Assembly (NCBI GenBank): GCA_033344915.1
Contig: JAWPML010000001.1
Coordinates: 3,676,263 to 3,740,262, forward strand
Direction: 5' to 3'
DNA length: 64,000 nt
Source of the DNA: Acidimicrobiales bacterium
GTDB taxonomy: Bacteria; Actinomycetota; Acidimicrobiia; Acidimicrobiales; Aldehydirespiratoraceae
The position numbers and the translations under genes were made by a program. Numbering within the stretch: position 1 is the first letter of the stretch; every line of letters starts with the position of its first letter. Under the pieces are notes generated by a model. It ran no database searches and was not told where the DNA came from. It saw only the letters and a program-made list of their open reading frames with translations. Below are positions 16,228 to 56,862 of this stretch, piece after piece.

Positions 16228-17466
16228 CTATTCCGTCGCGCCGGACGAGGCAGCGGTCGCGGGCACCTTCACCCGGACCGGCATCGTGCGGGGACCGCGG
16301 ACCTGGCCGGTCGACCAGGTCACGGCGGCGGGATCGGCCAGCTCGAAGTCGGGGAACGCGTCCATCCACTCCTCGAGGCCGACGCTCATCTCCAACCGGG
16401 CGAGGTTCGACCCCACGCAGCGGTGGATGCCGAGCCCGAACGCGCTGTGGCGGTTGCGCTGGCGATCGATGACGAACTCGTCGGCCTGCTCGAACGCCTC
16501 GGGATCCCGGTTGGCCGACGGGAACGACAGCAGCGTCCAGTCGCCTTCCTTCATCGGGCAGCCGCCGACCTCGACGTCCTCTGCGACGAGCCGCGCCATC
16601 GTGACCGGTGCGTAGAAGCGGAGGAACTCCTCGATTGCGAACGGTCGCACCGAGGGGTCCTCGAGCCAGCGGCGACGGTCCTCGGGGTGCTGGGCCATGT
16701 GCCAGATGCTGGACCCGATCCCCGACCAGGTCGTGTCGATGCCGGCGATGATCAGTAGGGCGATCGTGCCGCGGACGTGCTCGTCCTGGAGCGGCATGCC
16801 TTCGATGTCGCCGGTGCAGAGGTAGCTGATGAGGTCGTCGCCCAGGTTCTCGCGCCGCTCCTTGACCTTGGTGTCGAGGTAGTAGTCGAGGGTGTCCTCC
16901 CACGACTCGACCGAATTCTGACCCGGCTCCTCGAGGATGCGATGGATGAAGACGCGGAAACGGTCGCCGTCCTCGCGGGGAAGGCCGAGCATGTCGGCGA
17001 TCACGCGGACGGGGATGTGCTGGGCGTAGTCGGTCGCGGCGTCGGTGACGTCCATGCCGCTCGCCTTGATCTCCGCGATCAGGTCACGGCAGGTCTGGCG
17101 GGCGGTGTCCTCCCAGGCGGCGATCGCCTTCGGCGAGAAGAACTCGAGGAGGAACTTCCGGGCGATCGCATGGAACGGCGGGTCGCTCGTGATCGGCGGG
17201 GCGTAGCCCATCGGACGGGGCACTTCCGGGCGCCAGTCGGTCACGATCACGCCCTGGGACGTGAAGTGGTCGGTGTCCTTCGCGATGCGGGCGACGTCCT
17301 CGTGGCGGGTCGGGAGCCAGGCCCCACCGAAGCGCTCGGTGTGCGCGACCGGGCACCGCTCGCGGAGGTCGTCCCAGATCTCCGGCGCGTTCGCCGCGTA
17401 GTCGGGATGGGTGTGGTCGAAATCGGTGGCCCAGTCCTCGACGGGTGGGCGGGGGATGTCTGGCAT
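16228..17466 (-). CDS. Cytochrome P450
   Basis: This 412-aa soluble bacterial P450 has the I-helix oxygen-activation motif AGIDTTWSGI (~242), the ExxR of the K helix (EEFLRF) and the heme loop FGLGIHRCVG with the Cys thiolate near 352. It is a monooxygenase of unknown substrate; the ERR/APVTMARLV pattern resembles lipid- or terpenoid-type bacterial CYPs. The ATG at 17466 is chosen because GGAGG lies just upstream; a longer frame would cross the operator. It heads an operon with its ferredoxin. A -10-like TAGACT (17511-17516) overlaps the tandem repeat at 17484-17513, implying repression by a TetR-like factor. Confidence 0.9.
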   Translation of the reverse strand: MPDIPRPPVEDWATDFDHTHPDYAANAPEIWDDLRERCPVAHTERFGGAWLPTRHEDVARIAKDTDHFTSQGVIVTDWRPEVPRPMGYAPPITSDPPFHAIARKFLLEFFSPKAIAAWEDTARQTCRDLIAEIKASGMDVTDAATDYAQHIPVRVIADMLGLPREDGDRFRVFIHRILEEPGQNSVESWEDTLDYYLDTKVKERRENLGDDLISYLCTGDIEGMPLQDEHVRGTIALLIIAGIDTTWSGIGSSIWHMAQHPEDRRRWLEDPSVRPFAIEEFLRFYAPVTMARLVAEDVEVGGCPMKEGDWTLLSFPSANRDPEAFEQADEFVIDRQRNRHSAFGLGIHRCVGSNLARLEMSVGLEEWMDAFPDFELADPAAVTWSTGQVRGPRTMPVRVKVPATAASSGATE

Positions 17467-17590: not shown

Positions 17591-17783
17591 GGAATCTCTG
17601 GTCACGAAAGTGTCGCCGCGTCCCGGAATTCTCCCCCCCCCCCCACGAGCAATCTCTGGTCAGGAAAGTGTCGTGCCCGGCCCGGGAGATCGACCCTTTC
17701 GTGCCCAGAGATTCCTCGGTGTGGGTGTTCGCCTGGGCCGCACGACACTTTCGTGCCCAGAGATTCCGGGGTTCTGAGATTCC
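17591..17783. repeat. Nested inverted-repeat cluster (AATCTCTGG element, copies A-E)
   Basis: Copies A (17591-17615) and B (17651-17673) on the plus strand carry AATCTCTGGTCACGAAAG plus TGTCG (B has one change). Copies C (17691-17715) and D (17743-17767) carry the reverse complement, ending CCCAGAGATTCC. A pairs with D (one mismatch in 25) and B with C, so the whole stretch can fold as nested stems. A remnant E (TCTGAGATTCC) ends at 17783. This is the only content seen in the 335-bp gap 17467-17801 besides the operator and a run of 12 C at 17633-17644. Confidence 0.85.
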
Positions 17784-17801: not shown

Positions 17802-18416
17802 TCAGGTGGGGGTGGGCGTGCGGGTCTTGCGGTTGAGCCAGGCGATCATGCCGAGGACGAAGGCGAGCACGCCCACGAAGATGAAGGCCTCGGGGAACAG
17901 CGACGGGCGGACGCTGCCGAGGTGACGCTGGATCGCACCGTCGGACACCGGGCCGGTCGCCAGGGGCGGCGCCGGATCGGCGTCGATGTCGACCTCCGCG
18001 GCGGCGAGGGCGCGAGTGCCGGAACACAGGCCGACGTCGAACCATCCGTCCTCGAGGGTGTGGAACCCGGTCTCGCTGCGTCCGAAGACGAGGTACTCCG
18101 TGGCGAGCTCGAAGTCGAAGCCGCACGCCGCGCTGCTCTCGTTGGTGACGACGCCGACCTGCTCGCCGATCTCTCCGCTGTACACGGCGTCGACATCGAG
18201 AACGACGACCGCGGGATGGGTCTCGACGAACATCCCCTCTCGGGGCGCGTGCACGCTGGCGACCGTGCCGATGAACGCGGCGTCGGCCGACGCCAACGCC
18301 TCCGCATCGGTGAGCGGTCCGGCACAGGAGCACGCCATCGCCGGGCCGGCCGAGGCGAGAACCAGCGTCGTGGCCAACGCCAGAACGGCGACCAAGAGCC
18401 GCGCGAGCCTCACCAC
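17802..18416 (-). CDS. TIMP/NTR-like exported protein with C-terminal membrane anchor
   Basis: This 204-aa protein has a signal peptide ending GPAMA, after which the mature chain starts CSCAGPLTDAEALASADAAF. An N-terminal Cys-x-Cys directly after cleavage is the hallmark of the TIMP/NTR-like fold, in which it blocks metalloproteases in animals; bacterial function is unknown. Further Cys (SSAACGF, VGLCSG) may complete disulfides. A membrane helix near 176-194 (AFIFVGVLAFVLGMIAWL) with a basic tail anchors it. Its start overlaps the small membrane protein by 7 bp, as third gene of the RF3 operon. Confidence 0.8.
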   Translation of the reverse strand: MVRLARLLVAVLALATTLVLASAGPAMACSCAGPLTDAEALASADAAFIGTVASVHAPREGMFVETHPAVVVLDVDAVYSGEIGEQVGVVTNESSAACGFDFELATEYLVFGRSETGFHTLEDGWFDVGLCSGTRALAAAEVDIDADPAPPLATGPVSDGAIQRHLGSVRPSLFPEAFIFVGVLAFVLGMIAWLNRKTRTPTPT

Positions 18417-54911: not shown

Positions 54912-54953
54912 CGGCGCCAGCGTAGGCAGCCGTACTGCGGGAGACTGGTGGGC

Positions 54954-55571
54954 ATGGGTGATCTCCCCCCGAACCATCACGCCGACTATCCGCAGTTCAC
55001 GGGCATCTTCGGCTTCGTCGCCGGACTCACGATGATCGTCGGCCGCGGGCGCGACGCTCGTCTCGTGGCTCAGCTCGCGGCGGTCACCGCGGATCAACAC
55101 GTCGTCGACATCGGCTGCGGTCCGGGCACCGCGGCGCGCCTGACCGCGGCCGGCGGCGCGAGCGTCACCGGCGTGGATCCCTCGGCGCCGATGCTCCGGC
55201 TCGCCCGGCTCCTGACCGCGATCCGCCGGCCCCGCGGTGCCCTCGACTGGGTGCAGGCGGGCGCGGAGGACATGCCGCTCCCGGACGCTTCGGCCGACGT
55301 CGTCTGGTCGCTCGCGTCGGTCCACCACTGGCCCGAACTCGAGGCCGGGATCGCCGAGGTCAGCCGAGTGCTCCGCCCCGGCGGCATGTTCCTCGCCGTC
55401 GAGAAGCGCACCGAACCGGGAGCGACCGGCAACAAGAGCCACGGTTGGACGCCACAGCAGGCCGATCTCTTCGCCGCGATGCTCGCCGACCGCGGCTACC
55501 GCGACACGAGCACCGCCGACCACGACATCGGCAAACGCCGCCTCGTCGTCGCCTCCGGCACCCACCCCTGA
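54954..55571 (+). CDS. Class I SAM-dependent methyltransferase
   Basis: This 205-aa protein has the AdoMet motif I VVDIGCGPGTAARL (~49-62), motif II acid in VTGVDPSAPML, and motif IV DASADVVWSLASVHHW. It is of the Methyltransf_11 type; substrate unknown. Start ATG 54954 is chosen for size and the absence of similarity upstream. It precedes the hairpin repeat at 55595. Confidence 0.88.
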   Translation: MGDLPPNHHADYPQFTGIFGFVAGLTMIVGRGRDARLVAQLAAVTADQHVVDIGCGPGTAARLTAAGGASVTGVDPSAPMLRLARLLTAIRRPRGALDWVQAGAEDMPLPDASADVVWSLASVHHWPELEAGIAEVSRVLRPGGMFLAVEKRTEPGATGNKSHGWTPQQADLFAAMLADRGYRDTSTADHDIGKRRLVVASGTHP

Positions 55572-55594: not shown

Positions 55595-55657
55595 GCAATC
55601 TCTGGTCACGAAAGGGTCGCCAGGGCCCCGATGTTTCGACCCTTTCGTGACCAGAGA
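55595..55657. repeat. Perfect 23-bp inverted repeat (AATCTCTGG element, second locus)
   Basis: The plus-strand arm 55595-55617 (AATCTCTGGTCACGAAAG plus GGTCG) and its exact reverse complement 55635-55657 enclose 17 nt. The same sequence occurs as copies A-D at 17.6-17.8 kb. It lies 23 nt after the methyltransferase stop and before a leftward pyrimidine-rich stretch. Confidence 0.9.
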
Positions 55658-55705
55658 TTCCTTTCGCTCTCTCCCTCTCTCCCCCCTTGGGGGCGAGTGG
55701 TCACC

Positions 55706-55740: not shown

Positions 55741-56862
55741 ATGACAGATGCCACCGATCCGGCGGTGACCGGCGAGTCCTGGGCCGCGTTCTGTGACGCG
55801 CTGAAGCGGGCGGGCGACACGGTGATCGAGAACAGCACCGACGAACTGGACCGGATCGAGGGCTTCCGCTACCTGAGCCGGCTGACGCGGGGTGGCCTGC
55901 TGTCGTTCCTGGAGAACGGCGCGCCGCCCTTCGCCCAGATCCTGCCGATCCCGCACAACCTGAAGATCGGGTGCGACAACCCGGACGCGTTCTACCAGAA
56001 CGTCCCGATCGACCCGCAGTACGAGTACCGGATCCACGGACCACGCGGGACCATCAACTACCTCAGCATCGGGGCGTATTCGGGGGGCTACCTGGCGGGG
56101 GCGGCCCAGCCCGGGATCCAGGGGCATCTGGAGGACAACGACCCGGACCCGGAGGGCTACGTCGACATCATCGCGAGCGTCGCGGAGCCGGCGTCGCTCG
56201 CGCCGGGTCAGCGGTGGCTGAAGATGGAGTCGTTCACGTCCACGCTGATCATTCGCAACTTCTACCTCGACCGGTCGACCGAACGGCCCTCGGATCTCAC
56301 GCTCGAGTGCCTGAACCCGCCGGCCCCCGGCCCCGGCCCACTCACCGCGGAGAAGCTGAACCACGGACTGGCGATGGCCGGGCTCTTCGTGCAGGGCGTG
56401 ACCGATACGTTCCTGACGTGGCTCAACGACCTGTTCGCGGACCGGCCCAACACGCTCGAGTTCCTCCCCGAGGAGGACACCGGCGGCGGTTGGGGTGATC
56501 CGAACCAGTTGTTCCGGCACGGTTCGTGGACCCTCGAACCCGGTCAGGCGCTGATCGTCGACGTGCCCGCCATCGAGGCGTACTACTGGAACTTCCAGCT
56601 CAACAACATGTGGGAGGAGTCGCTCGACTACGAGCACTGTCAGGTGACGGTGAACCAGCACACGGCCCACTACGAGCCGGATGGATCGGCCCGGCTCATC
56701 GTGGCGGATGAGGATCCGGGCTTCGGGAACTGGATCGACACGGCGCACCATCGCCATGGCACGTGGGGCCTGCGCTACAACCAGGTCGTCGAGGACATCG
56801 CCCCGACGGTGACGTTGATCGAGGTCACGAACCTGCCCGAGTGGGCGCCGGCGACGCCCTGA
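55741..56862 (+). CDS. DUF1214 domain protein
   Basis: This 373-aa protein has the DUF1214-type C-terminal half: HGSWTLEPGQALIVDVP, IEAYYWNFQLNNMWEESLDY (~275-295) and GNWIDTAHHRHGTWGLRY. The N-terminal half is a helical DUF1254-like region. Function is unknown; the family is common in mycobacteria and other actinomycetes and is often next to lipid genes. It is first in a row with a membrane protein and an HTTM protein. Confidence 0.8.
   Translation: MTDATDPAVTGESWAAFCDALKRAGDTVIENSTDELDRIEGFRYLSRLTRGGLLSFLENGAPPFAQILPIPHNLKIGCDNPDAFYQNVPIDPQYEYRIHGPRGTINYLSIGAYSGGYLAGAAQPGIQGHLEDNDPDPEGYVDIIASVAEPASLAPGQRWLKMESFTSTLIIRNFYLDRSTERPSDLTLECLNPPAPGPGPLTAEKLNHGLAMAGLFVQGVTDTFLTWLNDLFADRPNTLEFLPEEDTGGGWGDPNQLFRHGSWTLEPGQALIVDVPAIEAYYWNFQLNNMWEESLDYEHCQVTVNQHTAHYEPDGSARLIVADEDPGFGNWIDTAHHRHGTWGLRYNQVVEDIAPTVTLIEVTNLPEWAPATP

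Follow-up and report, generated by a model that had tools for sequence, protein, structure and literature searches.

In REP sequences and their RAYT partners, each repeat unit is defined as a short palindrome tagged with GTAG or CGTC (PMC3733652). REPINs consist of two inverted copies, which are intergenic, are held at a fixed distance, and show compensatory changes between the arms (PMC3116915). AbiEi binds two 23-bp inverted repeats that are 3 bp apart and bends its operator, and the corresponding pairs of Rv2827c are 13 bp apart, the additional 10 bp being noted by the authors (PMC7319586).

In the present study, we analyzed a window of 64,000 nucleotides from an Acidimicrobiales bacterium, in which the initial annotation had recorded a hairpin-forming repeat at two loci, and followed the repeat through the source genome (G000; 4.48 Mb, single contig), of which the window occupies 3,676,263-3,740,262, and through the genomes of relatives. 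We found that the repeat unit is a 25-bp asymmetric site, GGAATCTCTGGTCACGAAAGGGTCG, about 90 of which are present at 41 intergenic loci. In the best reading, these loci are REPIN-like elements with an AbiEi-nuclease, in place of a RAYT, as the cognate protein.

The 25-bp site and its distribution

The 18-mer core of the site, with up to two mismatches, gave 89 matches in G000, and the reversed pattern, used as a control, gave none; the possibility that the sequence occurs only at the two places in the window can thus be discarded. Six copies lie in the window, four in 17593-17765 and two in 55597-55659, against 0.01 expected from shuffles. Inward-facing pairs are the basic arrangement; in some elements, such as the one at 17.6 kb, the pair is bracketed by one more site on either side (++--). 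As annotated initially, the four sites of locus 1 form nested inverted pairs, and both loci lie between genes. The second locus is a single inverted pair, and each locus lies just past a stop codon (Table 1). The annotation had also described a variable position (AGTGTCG or AGGGTCG) as changing together in paired arms; at locus 1 this holds for the outer pair, but the inner pair is mismatched, with AGTGTCG in site B and AGGGTCG in site C.

Table 1. Sites, spacers, and neighboring genes of the two elements in the window
Feature	Position	Strand	Remarks
Site A, outer left	17591..17615	+	Exact 18-mer; 25 bp
Site B, inner left	17649..17673	+	One core difference, CAGG; A-B offset 58 bp
Central spacer, locus 1	17674..17690		17 bp, TGCCCGGCCCGGGAGAT
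Site C, inner right	17691..17715	-	18-mer match
Site D, outer right	17743..17767	-	C-D offset 52 bp
Simple element, left arm	55595..55619	+	18-mer match
Simple-element spacer	55620..55636		17 bp; in the sister species, length unchanged and identity only 59%
Simple element, right arm	55637..55661	-	18-mer match
Cytochrome P450 gene, neighbor of locus 1	16228..17466	-	Context
Gene of unknown family, neighbor of locus 1	17802..18416	-	Stop 34 bp from element 1; context
Methyltransferase gene, neighbor of locus 2	54948..55571	+	Stop 23 bp from element 2; context
Downstream neighbor gene, locus 2	55741..56862	+	Context

The family is also present in one sister species (G319), whose genome is 81% complete and has some contigs that stop at elements. 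The other five members of the genus contain no match to the 18-mer with up to two mismatches, and the relatives sampled from the rest of the family and order gave only single two-mismatch matches, in three genomes. Among public contigs, which were sampled and not exhaustively searched, the exact 18-mer was found only in those of the MAG DHS20C19 (Acidimicrobiales). The viral contigs searched with the repeat gave no match, and an Rfam search of the window returned nothing above the gathering score except one tRNA.

Outside the sites, at a distance of about 5-12 bp, the left flank is C-rich and the right flank is G-rich (C up to 0.78). An extended stem through these flanks was ruled out, as pairing within elements was no better than between elements. 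A partial extra copy of the site often occurs about 20 bp further out. In G323 (C12 99387-99440), two parS-like TGTTTCACGTGAAACA sites were observed at a distance of 22 bp.

Spacing of the sites and divergence between two species

Of 72 start offsets between neighboring sites, 71 fall at 31-33, 42-44, or 52-54 bp, irrespective of whether the pair is +-, -+, ++, or --; the sole exception is the offset between sites A and B of locus 1. The spacers are correspondingly 7, 17, or 27 bp long, in steps of 10 bp, and are mostly unrelated in sequence between loci. Their AT content nevertheless follows the distance from the site, being high at positions 1-4, low at 6-11, and high again at 12-16. In the 27-bp spacers, the AT content was 0.58 at in-phase and 0.15 at out-of-phase positions (p=3e-31); the corresponding values were 0.56 and 0.10 in the 17-bp spacers and 0.41 and 0.09 in the spacers of direct repeats. 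Because the offsets are quantized and the AT/GC content oscillates in phase in unrelated spacers, the elements consist of sites arrayed along one face of the DNA double helix and are not just RNA hairpins. Direct repeats, which are unable to pair together, show the phasing as well. Such a pattern is typical of phased sites on bent, double-stranded DNA, and a hairpin of RNA or single-stranded DNA alone does not predict it. An inner hairpin within the spacers was also considered and ruled out, as their complementarity was lower than between elements. At 1247020-1247204 of G000, six sites of alternating orientation follow one another in tandem, spaced by exactly 32 bp, and the 7-bp spacer CAAATGT is repeated there three times.

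In the sister species, at least 16 of 20 loci are at orthologous places. In nine aligned orthologous elements, the arms are 93.3% identical, the spacers 46.4%, and the flanks 41.5%, and the spacer length is equal in all nine; the arms and their spacing have thus been kept, and the letters of the spacers have not. Flanking DNA is about 83-93% identical between the species when only alignable stretches are counted. No copies newer than the species split were found among the sister loci, and present activity of the family is therefore unsupported. The conservation of the arms long after the spread suggests either a continuing importance of binding for the cell or a cost of losing a site. In the sister species, about 1 kb of extra DNA, missing in G000, lies directly beside two elements (L154 1521-2481; L077/L157 1818-2990), and the elements may thus be hotspots of insertion or deletion.

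The arms also change together. Eight positions in the nine orthologous elements changed on both arms, seven of them to the same base, versus 14 on one arm only; the sister orthologue of the simple element at 55.6 kb, for example, has a matched T-to-A change on both arms. Calculated on 27 elements, the covariation score was 0.126, against 0.053 for shuffled and at most 0.047 for slid controls, with both sides changed in 8 of 25 pairs. The paired changes, which the initial annotation had taken as expected for selection on a stem or for duplication as units, are therefore real, but they do not by themselves establish selection, as template switching yields an equal signal. Two of the nine spacers match better between the species when inverted (63% versus 26%, and 56% versus 33%), which is a mark of template switching between arms (PMC8604942). 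The covariation thus has a mutational as well as a selective explanation.

The AbiEi-nuclease gene and its homologues

Outside the window, the gene at 4413846-4414766 of G000 is framed by two + and two - sites, which enclose no other gene; the sister species shows the same framing. It encodes a protein of 307 amino acid residues, with an AbiEi-like DNA-binding N-terminal part (residues 5-180; 4.8e-25 against the AbiEi profile) and an MTES_1575/DUF559 nuclease-like C-terminal part, for which matches to 3hrl (1.7e-7) and to 3r3p, a mobile-intron protein (0.0015), were obtained. In 36 proteins, D239 and E250 are invariant and D252 and D266 nearly so, a conservation that would be expected of an active nuclease. 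A single-sequence structure prediction of the sister protein had a pLDDT of 39 and was unusable.

Homologues of the gene occur in 119 of 298 genomes of the order. Inverted repeats that differ in sequence from the 25-bp site frame most of the paralogues and homologues found elsewhere in the genus. We scored the framing repeats of 37 homologues across the order, which were the best matches and not a random sample. A score of at least 14 was reached by 28 of the 37 and by 30 of 1500 random windows (2%); a score of at least 16 by 24, versus 4 of 386 ordinary genes, two of these four being family members met blindly; and a score of at least 18 by 22, versus no random window. Nine of the 37 have no framing repeat.

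In every family examined, solo hairpins of the framing repeat are found elsewhere in the same genome; these families number three in G000, one in G323, and two in G140. The repeat that frames the gene at 697245 of G000, which has 23-bp arms and a 3-bp loop, has four solo hairpins, and that of the gene at 2295916 has two in 329 kb; the G323 gene has one in 414 kb. For the two G140 genes, which belong to a distant nuclease family, there are five in 400 kb for one and two for the other. These two genes (L256 15638-16762; L269 9164-10235) each have their own long hairpin repeat. A core, [AT]T[TC]T[CGT]TG, is present in 10 of 24 repeat families against 0.4 by shuffling; this core was chosen after seeing the data and is only a lead. 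In the open-access literature, we found no report of AbiEi/DUF559 proteins with framing or dispersed repeats.

A second framed gene in G000, which encodes a PQQ-domain lipoprotein (1881788-1883224), lies between the halves of a ++-- element; the six remaining genomes of the genus gave no good match to it. The ends of its frame carry the variants seen in the nuclease unit, and the gene thus looks like cargo.

The AbiEi and Rv2827c operators are those of antitoxins, in the autoregulation of type IV toxin-antitoxin systems; the AbiE system of this type is defined by an AbiEii nucleotidyltransferase toxin next to the antitoxin. The 25-bp sites share with these operators the inverted arrangement of asymmetric sites of about 23 bp, spacings that differ by 10 bp (3 versus 13), and a protein with a homologous N-terminal part. 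Unlike those operators, the sites are dispersed over 41 loci and stand at both ends of the gene, the protein has an additional nuclease domain, and no second gene is in the frame. The steps of about 10 bp are likewise in a different register, 7/17/27 bp instead of 3/13 bp, which is a point against our explanation. EDxHD/Vsr-like homing endonucleases (3r3p) resemble the present protein in the weak similarity of the nuclease domain, but here there is no intron, the domain is fused to AbiEi, and the frame consists of hairpin repeats.

Explanations for the dispersed sites

Among the alternatives, it is improbable that the elements act as RNA hairpins, either as bidirectional transcription terminators or as stabilizers of mRNA 3' ends. 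Their position fits such a role: in neighborhoods obtained with our own gene caller, in which the gene calls are approximate, 18 of the 41 loci lie between convergent genes (42 of 258 boundaries in the background) and 4 between divergent genes, and the median distance from an element to a stop codon is 23 bp. The strong folding of the elements (z of -7.3 and -8.5) and the covariation of the arms fit as well. However, a scan of locus 1 for intrinsic terminators, which are short GC hairpins followed by a T-run, gave no match, and the flanks of the elements contain no T-run; there are only 41 loci in the genome, and the repeat is absent in the other congeners. The 10-bp steps and phased spacers, found also between direct repeats, count against RNA hairpins too.

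It is also unlikely that the sites serve the host at the ends of genes by binding a chromosome-organizing protein, for example gyrase or a nucleoid protein, with the nuclease gene as merely one more neighbor. The phasing of the GC content is similar to the 10.75-bp motif of gyrase and to the binding of BIME-2 (PMC6379681), and the convergent-gene bias and the strong conservation of the arms would agree. Like the BIMEs of Escherichia coli with their gyrase sites, the elements are intergenic, lie 3' of genes, alternate in orientation, and show GC periodicity; unlike them, they are made of sequence-specific 25-bp sites, belong to another organism, and come with no evidence for gyrase. This explanation does not account for the homologues of this one gene throughout the order, each with a frame of its own repeat, or for the solo families matched to each paralogue.

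Spread by the RAYT (Y1 HUH) transposases of the genome, acting on single-stranded hairpins, is quite unlikely. In favor of it, the elements resemble REPINs, being dispersed intergenic doublets of inverted copies with fixed spacing, variable spacers, and compensatory arm changes, with one gene framed by the repeat; moreover, G000 has two RAYT-like Y1_Tnp (PF01797) genes, at 2049674 and 2868710. However, both of these adjoin a different palindrome, GGKGTCWGACMCC, and neither adjoins the 25-bp repeat, so that the RAYTs were ruled out as its partner. The palindrome GGKGTCWGACMCC, with 98 copies in G000, is also found in relatives with Y1 genes in which the 25-bp repeat is missing, and it is absent from G320, which has no Y1_Tnp gene. 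In addition, a single 25-bp site has no internal palindrome and no GTAG or CGTC tag, the linked gene is AbiEi with DUF559/MTES_1575 and not HUH Y1, and single-stranded hairpins would not be expected to show quantized offsets of direct (++/--) sites or a phased AT content. The REP- or MITE-like reading of the initial annotation is thus retained for the dispersed, intergenic position and the paired arm changes, but not for the unit, the spacing, or the enzyme. The palindrome family that adjoins the RAYT-like genes of the genus, GGGGTCAGACCCC / GGTGTCTGACACC, is unrelated to the 25-bp repeat and has 98 copies in G000, 153 in G323, and none in G320, which lacks Y1_Tnp.

Ordinary MITEs of a now-lost DDE insertion sequence, which terminal inverted repeats and a cargo copy sharing end variants with the nuclease unit would fit, are very improbable, as none of the loci examined has a transposase between copies of the repeat, no target-site duplications are present, and the spacers are unrelated between elements.

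We consider it fairly probable, instead, that the elements are arrays of binding sites for the AbiEi-type winged-helix protein with its DUF559/MTES_1575 (Vsr/EDxHD-like) nuclease domain, the framed gene being autonomous and the approximately 41 elements its derivatives. That the protein binds the 25-bp sites is suggested by its homology to AbiEi together with the geometry of the sites. Two protein units would bind an inward-facing pair cooperatively on one face of the helix, which would fix the distance between sites at 3, 4, or 5 helical turns and favor bendable, AT/GC-phased spacers. Through the pair of sites upstream of its gene, the protein would regulate its own expression, and the framing could be partly that of autoregulatory operators, a point against our explanation; autoregulation does not explain the elements near stop codons. 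The lack of target-site duplications, of copies newer than the species split, and of a framing repeat in nine of the 37 homologues likewise counts against our explanation. The nuclease gene framed by its sites would form the autonomous unit, and the short elements, together with the one cargo copy (++ PQQ-lipoprotein gene --), would be non-autonomous derivatives, which may have spread in the common ancestor of the two species. The agent of this spread was probably the nuclease, in the way proposed for RAYTs and REPINs. By analogy with RAYTs and homing nucleases, we guess that nicking or cutting at the sites by the protein seeded the copies. The sites have presumably been kept by selection for binding.

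It is also possible, at a little less than an even chance, that the AbiEi-DUF559/MTES_1575 proteins of Acidimicrobiia are repeat-spreading enzymes of a new class. They would combine a DNA-binding domain of the toxin-antitoxin type with a nuclease of the homing type and form a counterpart to RAYT-REP of independent origin, in which each gene is framed by, and seeds the genome with, its own family of hairpin sites. The usual interpretation of AbiEi proteins is that they are antitoxins of phage defence. If AbiEi-nucleases are the partners of dispersed repeats, the puzzle of who spreads palindromes that do not belong to RAYTs, and why these are conserved, would become testable, with predicted sites, spacing rules, and one named protein for each family.
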